The notes below the pieces were generated by a model. The model searched no databases. It was not told where the DNA came from and saw only the letters and a list, made by a program, of their open reading frames with translations. Positions 1,646 to 40,623 of a DNA stretch of 64,000 bases are shown here, piece by piece. The translations under genes were made by a program, and so were the position numbers. This DNA comes from Thermoleophilaceae bacterium. Lineage in GTDB: Bacteria > Actinomycetota > Thermoleophilia > Solirubrobacterales > Thermoleophilaceae. The DNA lies in NCBI GenBank assembly GCA_030447725.1, contig JAUJOQ010000002.1, positions 329,916 through 393,915 on the forward strand, read 5' to 3'. The number at the start of each line of letters is the position of its first letter. The stretch's first letter is position 1.

Positions 1646-3156
1646 GGCCGGACGGGCTCCGTGCCCTCGAGGCCGCGGGGCGTGTCCACCTTGGGCGCGC
1701 GGCCACGGCGCAGGCGCGGGTACTTCTGCCCCTGGAACAGCGACGGCGGAGCCACGAAGCACGGGGGCTCGGCGCCCACGCCGAGGAAGTCGAGCGGAGG
1801 CGGCAGCTGCGTGTCCTTGGGGTTGGGCTGCTCGTCCCCGCCCGGGCAGGTGAAGCTCTCGATCACGCCGGCGGCGGGCATGCGCTCGTAGGCGTTTGGC
1901 ACCGGGTAGGCGTTGCCGCGGTCGAAGGAGGGCCTGCTGGGGTTGCGGGAGAAGGTCTGCGAGTCGATCGACGCAAGCTGCGGCAGCCAGTGCTCGGCCC
2001 CGCGGGGGTTTCCACCCTGGTAGCCGCCGGTGCCCTGACCGGCGAGGGTGGCGCCGCCGAGGGTGAGGAACTGCGCCACCTGGAGCTTGCTGAAGCTGAG
2101 GTAGGACAGGATCGGGTTGAGCTCGGGCAGGAACACGTGCAGGGACTCGAACACGGGCTCGGCGCCCCTCAGGAAGCGCGCCCCTTCGGGAAGGCCGCGG
2201 TTGCCGGCCCGGATGAGGGGATCGAGGTCGACGAACAGGCGCTCGAGGTCCGGCGCGAGCTCGCCGAGGTCGCGCACCGTCGGGCCGAGGTCGTCCACCG
2301 GGCCCTTGAGCTGGTTGACCAGTGGGCGCGTGTCGCGGGAGAAGGTCTCCAGCCGGGCGAGCGTGGTCCGGCTCTCGCGCAGGAAGGTGGGAAACACCTC
2401 GAACGTCTCGGCCAGGGCCTCGTCGCGCGAGGCGAGTGCCGCGAAGGTCTGGTTGCCGTTGTCGATCAGGCCGCGCAGCTGGCCCTCCTCGGCGGCGAGG
2501 GCGTTGAACACGCGACCGGTGTTCTTGATGGTGCCGCGGACGGCCCCCTCCTGGTCCTCGAGGATCTCCAGCAGCCTTGCGCCGTCGGTGGCGAAGGGCG
2601 CCAAGTTGCCGATCGCGTCGTTGAGGTCCTCCCCGTAGTCGCCCGAGACCACCACGGATCCCTCCTGGATCCACTTGGCGAAATTGCGGCGCGTGCGCTT
2701 GTCGAAGATCCGGTAGATCTCGTCGAGCTCGACGGTGATGTTCACGTTGGACTTGGCCAGCTGCTCGCCGTCCTCGAGCATGCCGGCGTCCGGATTGCCC
2801 GGCGTCAACTCGACGTAAGTCTCGCCGAGCAGCGTCTTCTGGCGCAGGATGGCGCGGGTGTCGCGCGGGATCGGCGCGTACTTCTCCTCGACCTCCATCT
2901 CCACCACCGTGCGCCCGCTTGCCTTGTCGAGCTCCCTCGTCCTGACCTTGCCGATGTTGACTCCCGCGAGGCGCACGTCGGCCTCCTCGACCAGCGTCGC
3001 GGCCTCGGGGAACTTGGCGGTGAAGCGGTAGCCCTCCGGGCGCAGCGGGATCGACCCTCCGAAGGAGAGCCAGAGAAAGAGCAGCAGGCCGAAGCAGGAG
3101 AGCGTGAAGCCCACCATCGCGGCGATCCGGCCGACGCTTGGGGTGTCCTTGACCAT
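1642..3156 (-). CDS. MCE/MlaD family protein
   Basis: N-terminal TM then YRFTAKFPEAATLVEEADVRLAGVNIGKV MCE domain. Confidence 0.9.
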   Translation of the reverse strand: MVKDTPSVGRIAAMVGFTLSCFGLLLFLWLSFGGSIPLRPEGYRFTAKFPEAATLVEEADVRLAGVNIGKVRTRELDKASGRTVVEMEVEEKYAPIPRDTRAILRQKTLLGETYVELTPGNPDAGMLEDGEQLAKSNVNITVELDEIYRIFDKRTRRNFAKWIQEGSVVVSGDYGEDLNDAIGNLAPFATDGARLLEILEDQEGAVRGTIKNTGRVFNALAAEEGQLRGLIDNGNQTFAALASRDEALAETFEVFPTFLRESRTTLARLETFSRDTRPLVNQLKGPVDDLGPTVRDLGELAPDLERLFVDLDPLIRAGNRGLPEGARFLRGAEPVFESLHVFLPELNPILSYLSFSKLQVAQFLTLGGATLAGQGTGGYQGGNPRGAEHWLPQLASIDSQTFSRNPSRPSFDRGNAYPVPNAYERMPAAGVIESFTCPGGDEQPNPKDTQLPPPLDFLGVGAEPPCFVAPPSLFQGQKYPRLRRGRAPKVDTPRGLEGTEPVRP

Positions 3157-3173
3157 CTAGCTGGGGGTCCTCA

Positions 3174-4535
3174 TCAGAAGTTGCAGATCCCGAATCCGGA
3201 GGTGGTCACGGCATCGATCTCAGAGACGATCTGCTCGAGGGGCACGCCCTCGAGCCCCAGCTCCGTGGCCGCAGCGGTGAGCTGCTCCACCACGGTCGGC
3301 ACGCTGATGCCGCACAGGGTGGTGCGGCGGAAGGGCCCATTCGCGTCGGAGGTGTTGAAGAGCGACACGCCGGTCTGGGAGACCCAGGCCAGCCAGTAGA
3401 GCATGCCCTCCTCGCGCTCGCGGTCGCGGGCCAGGTCGCCCGTCAGGCCTTCGGCCCCGCCCGGGTTGTAGGCGCCGATGTTGAAGAAGCGGTTGAGCTC
3501 GTCGAATGACTTGGTCAGGTCGGGCAGCGCCCGCACGGTGGTCCGGGCCGCGCCGCCGAGGCGGGACACGTAGGGGCGCGTCGCCCGCGTGAAGGGGCGG
3601 ATCTGATCCTCGACGATCGGGGCGGCCTCACGCACGAACGGGAGCACTGCCGCGTTGGTCTCTTCGAGGCGGCGGAACGGCGGGCGCAGAGCGTTCAGCG
3701 CGGGGCCCAGCCGGTTGCCGAAGGCCTCCACCTTGGTCAGCGTGGACTCCGTCTGGCGCAACGCGCCCGGCAGCTTGCGCACGGTGGCGGCCACGTTGGT
3801 GTCCTCCTCGGCGAGCGCAGAGAACACCTCATTCGAAGCGGTGACCAGCTGGGTCAGCTCCTCGTCCTTGCCCCCCAGCTCGTCCACGATCTCGCTGTAG
3901 TCGTGCACGAGCCGCTTGAGGCTCTCGCGGCGCAGGGCCACGGCGGAGTTGAGCCGGTCGAGGTCGCGGTGCAGCGGCTCCAGGCGCTGGAAGGTCTTGC
4001 GCAAGTCCTCGCCGCGCCCTTCGAGGCCCTTGCCGCCGGCGGAGATCAGGAGCTTGAGGTAGTCGCGGGTGTCGGCGTCGAGCGCGGAGAACACCTCGTC
4101 GGGGTCGACGTCGGGGGCGGTGTTGGCCACAGGTATGCGGTCGCCCTCGCCGAGGGCCTTGCCCTGGCCCGGCTCGACCTCCAGGAACATGTCCTTCAGT
4201 GCGGTCTTCGGGCGCAGCAGCGCGGTGGCGTCCTCACGGATCAGCCCCTCGTAGGCCTTGTCGATCTCCATGTCGACGACGGCGATGCCGTCCTCGACCT
4301 CCACGGCGCCGATGCTGCCGATCTTCACCCCGGCCACGCGTACGGTCTGGCCCTGGCCAGGGGTGACCGCCTGGGCGTCCTGGAGCTCCACCCGGATCAC
4401 CTGGGGCTTGTCCTCCACCAGCGGAAAGCGGAACCGCTGCTGATCGAGGATGTAGGCCGCGATCCCGAGCGCGACCACGAACAGGCCGAGGATCGCGAGG
4501 AAGTCGCGGAAGTACTTGCGGATCGCGCGCCTCAT
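3174..4535 (-). CDS. MCE/MlaD family protein
   Basis: N-terminal TM; VRVAGVKIGSIGAVEVEDGIAVVDMEI MCE domain. Confidence 0.9.
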   Translation of the reverse strand: MRRAIRKYFRDFLAILGLFVVALGIAAYILDQQRFRFPLVEDKPQVIRVELQDAQAVTPGQGQTVRVAGVKIGSIGAVEVEDGIAVVDMEIDKAYEGLIREDATALLRPKTALKDMFLEVEPGQGKALGEGDRIPVANTAPDVDPDEVFSALDADTRDYLKLLISAGGKGLEGRGEDLRKTFQRLEPLHRDLDRLNSAVALRRESLKRLVHDYSEIVDELGGKDEELTQLVTASNEVFSALAEEDTNVAATVRKLPGALRQTESTLTKVEAFGNRLGPALNALRPPFRRLEETNAAVLPFVREAAPIVEDQIRPFTRATRPYVSRLGGAARTTVRALPDLTKSFDELNRFFNIGAYNPGGAEGLTGDLARDREREEGMLYWLAWVSQTGVSLFNTSDANGPFRRTTLCGISVPTVVEQLTAAATELGLEGVPLEQIVSEIDAVTTSGFGICNF

Positions 4536-29749: not shown

Positions 29750-29788
29750 ACACAGAGAAGCCGCCCCGGCTGGGCGGCTTCTCTGTGT
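29750..29788 (-). terminator. Rho-independent-type hairpin 3' of tmRNA
   Basis: CACAGAGAAGCCGCCC-cggct-GGGCGGCTTCTCTGTG, perfect 16-bp arms (29751-29766/29772-29787), extendable by one A-T pair. Confidence 0.88.
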
Positions 29789-29790
29789 GA

Positions 29791-30158
29791 TGGAGACGGT
29801 GGGAATCGAACCCACGTCCGCGGGCGCGTGAAGAGCAGCGTCTACGAGCGTATCCGGCCCTCTGTTCTCGTCCTCAGGTCGCCTGGCCGGCGGGGTTGCT
29901 GGGGACCAGCCTCTGTGAGAAGTCCCCCCTTCGCCAGAGGCGCGCGAAGGGGGCGAGCCCACTGATTGATCTCGGACATCTCCCCCGCGGGCGAGGGGAG
30001 GCCAAGAGCACCGCTGGCTAGCTTTTGCTAGGCAGCGAGCGCGAACGAGTGATTCTCATCCGCATTTGTGTTTTTGCCGGTTGTTTTACGAGGCCGACCG
30101 GCAACCTCGACTCGCAACTGCCCCCACGGAAACGTCCACGTCGAAGCCTGTCGTCCCC
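29791..30158 (-). ncRNA. ssrA: tmRNA
   Basis: 5' GGGGACGACAGGCTTCGACGTGG; tag frame ...NADENHSFALAA-UAG (stop at 30030-30028) followed by CUAGC-AAAA-GCUAG hairpin; 3' GGACGTGGGTTCGATTCCCACCGTCTCCA T-arm/acceptor. Confidence 0.96.
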
Positions 30159-39240: not shown

Positions 39241-40623
39241 TCAAGCTTTGTTCTGAACGACCCGTACGCCCCGCCTTGGCACGAAGGTGACCCCCCTCCG
39301 CACACCCCGGTCTGGCTGGCGCCCCACCGGCCCGAGCTCCGCGCGCTCCAGCACCCGCCGGATCACCACCCGCATCTCGAACTCCGCGAAGCTCGCCCCC
39401 AGGCACCGCCGTGTCCCGCCGCCGAACGGCAGCCACGTGTAGGTGTCCGGCGGGTCGGAGCCAAGGAAGCGCTCGGGGCGGAACTCGGTGGCCGCTGGGT
39501 ACCGGTCCGCCCGCCGGTGGATCGCCGCGATCGACGGGTTGATCTCCACTCCCGGCGGGATCGCAAAGCCGCCTACCTCGAACGGCTCCTGGCCGCGCAC
39601 CACTCGCCCGATGCCCGAGATCACCGGGCGGATGCGCAGCGTCTCCTTCACCACCGCGCCGAGGTAGGCCTCGTCTCCCGATGCCAGCGACGCCCGAAGC
39701 CGAGCCAGCACCGGCGGATTGTGCAGCAGCAGGTCGAACGCCCACGCCAGCGCCGTCGCCGTCGTCTCGTGCCCCGCGACCAGCAGCGTCAGCAGCTCGT
39801 CGCGCAGCTCCTCGTCGGTCATCGGGCTTCCGCCCTCGTCGCGCGCCAGCACCAGCATCGACAGCACGTCCTCGCGTGAGGCCAGAGAATCTCCGGTGCG
39901 GTGCTCACCGGAACAACGTTCCGGCTGCGCTCCTCCCGAGCCCACCTCACCGCGCCGCGCGGCGATCTCCTCGTAGATGAGCTCGTCCACCGCTCGCCTG
40001 TGCTGCGCGAACTCCTCACCCGCCCCACTTCCGCGCCGCCCGCCCGTCAGCACCAGCATCAGCACGCCGGCCCGCGAGGCCACCGGGTCGATCATCGCCC
40101 GCAGCCTTCGCCTGAGCTCGAGAGAGCGCGACTCGTAGGTCACCCCGAACACCGCCCGCACGATCACGTCCAACGTCAGCGCCTGCATCGACCCCAGCAG
40201 CGCGAACTCCTCCCCGACCGGCCACGACTCGATTGCCCGGTCTGCCGCCTCGACCATGACCTCCTCGTACGCACGCATCCGCTGCCCGTGAAACGGCGGC
40301 AGCAGCAGCTTTCGTTGGCGCAGATGCTCCGCTCCGTCGAGCAGCAACACCGACCGCTCCCCCACCACTGGCCCCAGCAGCGCGTTCGCCTCTCCGGCCC
40401 GCAGCCGATCGGGCGAGCCGCGAAGCACCTGCTTGACCTGATCGACATCGAAGACCATCACGAACTGCGGGTCGAACAGGCTGCCAAAGATGACCACGTC
40501 CCCGTAGCGACGCCGGCAGAACTCGATCCACGGCGCCGGGAAGAAGAGAAACCCGGCCGTCTGCACCCAACGCGGCAGCCGCGGGCCAGGAGGAAGCGCT
40601 TGAACGCGTGCGCCAGCAGCCAT
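39241..40623 (-). CDS. Cytochrome P450
   Basis: LLVAGHETTATALAW, ETLRIRP, FRPERFL, FGGGTRRCLGASFAEFEM heme loop; start MAAGARVQ (ORF track over-extends 5'). Confidence 0.96.
   Translation of the reverse strand: MAAGARVQALPPGPRLPRWVQTAGFLFFPAPWIEFCRRRYGDVVIFGSLFDPQFVMVFDVDQVKQVLRGSPDRLRAGEANALLGPVVGERSVLLLDGAEHLRQRKLLLPPFHGQRMRAYEEVMVEAADRAIESWPVGEEFALLGSMQALTLDVIVRAVFGVTYESRSLELRRRLRAMIDPVASRAGVLMLVLTGGRRGSGAGEEFAQHRRAVDELIYEEIAARRGEVGSGGAQPERCSGEHRTGDSLASREDVLSMLVLARDEGGSPMTDEELRDELLTLLVAGHETTATALAWAFDLLLHNPPVLARLRASLASGDEAYLGAVVKETLRIRPVISGIGRVVRGQEPFEVGGFAIPPGVEINPSIAAIHRRADRYPAATEFRPERFLGSDPPDTYTWLPFGGGTRRCLGASFAEFEMRVVIRRVLERAELGPVGRQPDRGVRRGVTFVPRRGVRVVQNKA
39899..39937. repeat. Dispersed 39-bp repeat, copy B (inside P450 CDS)
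   Basis: cggtgctcaccggaacaacgttccggctgcgctcctccc; 38/39 to reverse complement of 1-39; translated as GGAQPERCSGEHR. Confidence 0.9.

Follow-up and report, generated by a model that had tools for sequence, protein, structure and literature searches.

The 64,000-nucleotide window analyzed here comes from the genome of a Thermoleophilaceae bacterium (G000; 3.17 Mb in 13 contigs) and contains two complete copies of a 43-bp hairpin unit. Copy A occupies positions 1 to 43 on the forward strand and has the stem CCGGAAC/GTTCCGG with the loop GTT (71.8 bits with the covariance model R1). Copy B occupies positions 39,895 to 39,937 on the reverse strand (69.3 bits with R1) and lies in frame within a cytochrome P450 gene (39,241 to 40,623, reverse strand; PF00067, E = 4.6e-55). 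In agreement with the original prediction, positions 1 to 39 are identical to the reverse complement of positions 39,899 to 39,937 at 38 of 39 positions, and both copies share the core CCGGAAC-NNN-GTTCCGG, a perfect palindrome of 7+3+7 positions; in copy B an exact pattern search places it, as CCGGAAC-AAC-GTTCCGG and without strand assignment, at positions 39,908 to 39,924. Within the window, this exact core is found in copies A and B only. The repeat that had been described as a 39-bp element is thus real, but the conserved unit is 43 bp long. Copy A is the final unit of a larger cluster, which lies mostly upstream of the window (contig C5 from position 329,589 onward; locus L023), and a 100-N assembly gap just upstream of the window start (L023, ∼3167 to 3266) parts it from the other units of this cluster. 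The sole match in an Rfam scan of the window at the gathering threshold was a tmRNA, so the hairpin element is without a known RNA family. The tmRNA gene itself is full length (29,788 to 30,158, reverse strand; RF00023, 171.9 bits).

Comparison with related proteins demonstrates that the P450 gene has been interrupted without loss of its reading frame. The extra segment comprises exactly 18 codons (54 bp; SGGAQPERCSGEHRTGDS) and extends from position 39,886 to 39,939 on the reverse strand, as determined by protein alignment and with its bounds set by comparison with orthologue DNA. It is missing from all 29 aligned homologues (44 to 73% identical in the search table). Hence, the insertion is clean and in frame as anticipated, while its length had been underestimated at 13 residues. 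The P450 gene is not the only gene affected. MurC carries an independent 54-bp (18-codon) insertion with the element on the other strand, and the aligned orthologues are without it. HemB is encoded by the only ALAD-family gene that was detected in G000. It contains a 210-bp insertion of ∼70 extra residues, made up of a nested pair and two further units and positioned between two conserved segments, HCG and VDND; this insertion is missing in the sister genome G006 (MAG Thermoleophilaceae bacterium MGR_bin92) and in the other aligned genomes. Moreover, HemA of G000 has a unit in its C-terminal tail, and the Lhr helicase of the congener G007 has one in a length-variable loop. In a second congener, G005, the same Lhr loop (L256) reads GAGEHRTE where G007 shows the element-encoded SGEHRT, and may be the degraded remnant of a former copy. 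At the sequence level, the reading frames of the interrupted P450, MurC, HemB, HemA and Lhr genes are all open. Together with ∼96 copies in the genome, these genic insertions support the suggestion of a REP/MITE-like or copied element that tolerates insertion into genes; the two observations that had been named as counting against it, a lack of further copies and the presence of the segment in orthologous P450s, both turned out otherwise.

The 43-bp unit is laid out as GGGAGGAGCGCAG, a 7-bp stem arm, a 3-nt GNY loop, the complementary arm and CGAGCACCGCACC; the stem has 8 bp if the flanking G-C pair is included, and CGAGCACCGCACC is followed by 6 to 8 variable bases and then usually by TCTC. 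On the 5' side, GGAG is invariant in alignment A2 and is located 4 nt away from the stem. The flanks are constant and the stem drifts with compensatory changes. First, among the matches listed, all seven stem pairs are intact in 110 of 121 exact-flank matches (71 of 78 in G000, 34 of 38 in G006, and 5 of 5 in G005), with 13 different stem sequences. Second, 13 of 24 distinct arm pairs are perfect, compared to 1.3 on average and at most 7 for shuffled arms. Third, 99.1% of cells are paired in alignment A2 (54 sequences), and both sides have changed in 47 cells, compared to 11.2 for shuffled and at most 6 for slid structures. Because the A2 sequences were chosen for palindromy, the cleaner evidence for covariation comes from a flank-only scan, in which 17 free bases were placed between the flanks, one mismatch was allowed, and no palindrome was required. 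The stems drift yet stay paired, and selection therefore acts on the hairpin and its flanks and not on the stem sequence. With flanks that are fixed and a stem that is free, a mobilizer would probably recognize the flanks together with the folded hairpin, either as single-stranded DNA or as RNA. The consensus is also stop-free in all six frames; at ∼72% G+C this is unremarkable, and we rejected the idea of a special openness of the element.

The family is abundant in one lineage and scarce elsewhere. A chance match was rejected, since the 17-mer core pattern has 51 exact places in G000 and its reversed control has none. The flank-only scan gave 96 places in G000, a few of them counted twice, 48 in G006, 8 in G007, and 7 in G005, compared to 0 to 2 for the reversed pattern; the single match in G004 is non-palindromic. 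The double counting arises at the end of contig C1 (L016) and the start of contig C13 (L036), which are identical over ∼2 kb and both match one stretch of G006, and these contigs thus overlap. N runs and contig ends fall within arrays, and C1, for instance, terminates inside a unit; the repeats therefore seem to disrupt the assembly, and copy numbers may be underestimated. The covariance model detected members in 9 of the 399 class genomes: G000 has many, G007 has 10, G019 and G009 (same family) and G167 (another family of the order) each have a single good match, and the remaining matches are weak. The unit in G167 (L148, 1997 to 2039) has a new stem, CCGGGGC/GCCCCGG, and the loop GAA, and suggests a wider, low-copy occurrence of the element. 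Among the matches listed for 397 genomes of the phylum, none outside G000 has exact flanks, and the one-mismatch flank matches seen in these genomes are non-palindromic, which led us to reject a widespread family. Likewise, single 19-mer matches in other phyla lack the palindrome, and a viral carrier was rejected because the 19-mer occurs in none of the viral contigs of the collection searched. The favored stem is CCGGAAC in G000 and G006 and CCCGATC in G007 and G005; these lineage-specific preferences suggest separate bursts in each lineage.

G000 and G006 are 85 to 93% identical over shared loci, and their orthologous sites differ in the presence or the depth of arrays. One site (L037/L089) reads LLLRRR in one genome and LR in the other, where L and R are left and right halves of the unit; a second (L016/L064) has a six-level array in one genome and is empty in the other; and the HemB site is empty in G006. 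In G006, L064 also contains a degenerate hairpin-like sequence, GGAGGAACGCAGCGCCTCGGGAGGCGCGCACTC (3110 to 3240), where G000 reads LRLR; it is perhaps a decayed or divergent copy.

The arrays have a regular internal order. Of 103 cores, 41 (∼40%) are nested with at least one outer level, with no outer level in 62, one in 26, two in 14, and three in 1. The spacing is 25 bp between left halves (46 of 57 levels) and 26 bp between right halves (52 of 57 levels), and each nesting level thus adds 51 bp, i.e., 17 codons. The outer arms are paired at 5 of 5 tested positions in 49 of 57 levels, compared to a shuffled mean of 27.8 and maximum of 38. Many arrays are of the type left-left-right-right or deeper, with equal or similar numbers of left and right halves; some are lopsided, e.g., with 7 left and 3 right halves. 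The outer 3' arm reads TCTCCGG as opposed to GTTCCGG in the free unit, indicating that insertion into the loop comes with a constant small change. Stem types can alternate within a single array (a-b-a), and the arms of each level match, rare variants included; in one array the outermost pair is CGGG/CCCG on both sides. Nesting is either a very precise event or the outcome of a few composite elements having been copied many times, and the near-identical a-b-a arrays at several loci would favor some copying of composites. It has also to be considered that the nesting stems from hairpin-templated copying or slippage, which would extend both arms of an existing palindrome without repeated insertion. 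The regular 25- and 26-bp repetition of the half-units, the lopsided arrays, and the site with LR in one species and LLLRRR in the other fit this mechanism. However, simple copying of one arm would not yield a-b-a stems with matching arms, including the CGGG/CCCG outermost pair, and we regard it as a rather doubtful account of the nesting as a whole. Because some arrays are lopsided, part of the nesting could nevertheless reflect slippage between tandem half-units of 25 and 26 bp. We favor an origin in which a unit inserts into the loop of a copy already present, or in which such composites are themselves copied.

By a rough, approximate gene call, 19 arrays of G000 lie in co-directional intergenic regions, 10 in convergent and 5 in divergent ones, and 7 are inside open frames. 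Counting outward from the 3' end of the element, stop codons on the opposite strand occur at distances of 6, 7, and 8 nt in 8, 11, and 7 of 78 arrays, compared to a background of 1.06 per offset, a count for which no gene call is needed; on the other side of the element, stop-codon enrichment is a weaker signal. This marked excess of stop codons, together with the strong compensatory changes in the stem, is what would be expected if the elements were selected, non-moving 3'-UTR hairpins that function in regulation, i.e., in transcript end formation, mRNA stability, or ribosome stalling. By contrast, the in-frame copies in P450, MurC, and HemB, the empty orthologous sites in the sister species, and the near absence of the element elsewhere in the class and phylum are at odds with this explanation and make it improbable. 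The variable positions of copies between the sister genomes refute it as the whole story; the hairpins may have a secondary regulatory effect. We suggest instead that the vicinity of stop codons and the surface loops of proteins would be the main places where copies survive, because they are tolerated there. A single insertion (54 bp) and a nesting step (51 bp) are each a multiple of three in length, and in-gene copies would thus be survivable with frames kept open.

The insertion sites were also analyzed for a target-site duplication. MITEs are characterized by a constant target duplication and by terminal inverted repeats that they have in common with a resident transposon; possible 3-bp duplications are present at some sites, and a systematic test over 75 arrays gave no significant offset. 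The MurC insertion, like those at two other sites (L006 and L007), fits the reading CTC-[51 bp]-CTC, and no target duplication is visible at the P450 site. An insertion of 51+3 bp and one of 54+0 bp are both compatible with these sequences. One 0.4-kb array coincides precisely with an ATGA stop/start overlap and is bordered by ATG(A) at either end, as would be expected if the elements spread in the manner of MIRUs by targeting overlapping stop and start codons. However, only this single site of the kind was seen, and MIRUs are tandem repeats and not covarying nested hairpins; we consider this route very unlikely. The resemblance is one of description and lies in a small mobile repeat of actinobacteria, mycobacterial MIRUs having been described to insert at stop/start overlaps and at start codons with a −4 nt spacing (PMC12548453).

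REPs provide a closer comparison. They are short hairpins with a fixed flank that are located downstream of genes and form subfamilies with complementary stem changes; intragenic copies are known, some REPs lie inside other small palindromes, and REP termini can provide stop codons (PMC3733652). The element described here shares the high copy number and the complementary stem subfamilies, and the possibility that it is an ordinary REP, mobilized by a RAYT whose gene has since been lost or lies in the portion of the genome that is missing, draws further on its conserved flank with the invariant 5' GGAG, its clustering, its intergenic placement and placement at stop codons, and its occasional intragenic copies, all of which are known for REPs (PMC3733652). 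We nevertheless judge this possibility unlikely. First, the RAYT/TnpA_REP transposase proposed in the original prediction did not materialize: Y1 transposases (PF01797, RAYT/IS200-type) were not detected in the 31 family genomes searched, of which 12 are at least 90% complete. Second, there is no terminal unpaired GTAG tag by the stem as in the GTAG superfamily, and GGAG is instead placed 4 nt away. Third, REPs form inverted dimers, whereas the units here are arranged head to tail and are nested, a geometry that is not described for REPs in their survey (PMC3733652). REPs of the CGTC superfamily have no dedicated transposase and are defined by a CGTC tag, an 8- to 9-bp stem, and a CCA tail (PMC3733652); the stem here has 8 bp, but there is neither a CGTC at the end nor a CCA tail. 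Actinobacteria are not mentioned in the text of the survey (PMC3733652).

Altogether, we consider it likely that copies A and B are members of a non-autonomous, REP/RPE-like family of mobile palindromes that has spread in one lineage of the Thermoleophilaceae in a lineage-specific burst and with an unusual self-nesting. With Y1 transposases absent from the 31 family genomes, we infer movement from the distribution of copies only. More tentatively, the family might represent a novel class of mobile hairpins in bacteria that are directed with a fixed geometry to the loops of their own copies, stay translatable within genes by virtue of 51-bp (17-codon) steps, and are moved by a non-Y1 enzyme; on balance we would not expect all of this to hold.

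Judged by description, the closest systems in function are the Rickettsia palindromic elements (RPEs) (PMC10969869) and REPs (PMC3733652). RPEs are small palindromes of ∼150 bp that are inserted in frame in unrelated protein genes, are tolerated in core genes, each encode a conserved peptide, and comprise several families (PMC10969869, PMC3733652). The in-frame insertions relative to homologues in P450, MurC, and HemB resemble them in description. By contrast, the unit described here measures 51 to 54 bp and is actinobacterial; its reading frame and orientation differ between the genes that carry it, and it is for the most part intergenic and nested. Palindromes inserted in one another have been described for the organelle genomes of Volvox (PMC2670323); these lie in noncoding regions of organelles, a fixed 51-bp step is not reported for them, and there are no in-frame gene insertions. 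Within the open-access literature searched, bacterial hairpins with a regular nesting were not found to have been described.

Palindromic selfish elements inserted in frame have been discussed mainly in Rickettsia, and the family described here provides an independent case in Actinomycetota. Sister species at 85 to 93% identity make filled and empty sites visible, including those in the core genes MurC and HemB, and the regular nesting is a readable record of successive events. The drifting stem between fixed flanks points to the folded hairpin as what is probably recognized. The family thereby makes testable both REP/RPE-like movement without a RAYT and the entry of new peptide segments into proteins.
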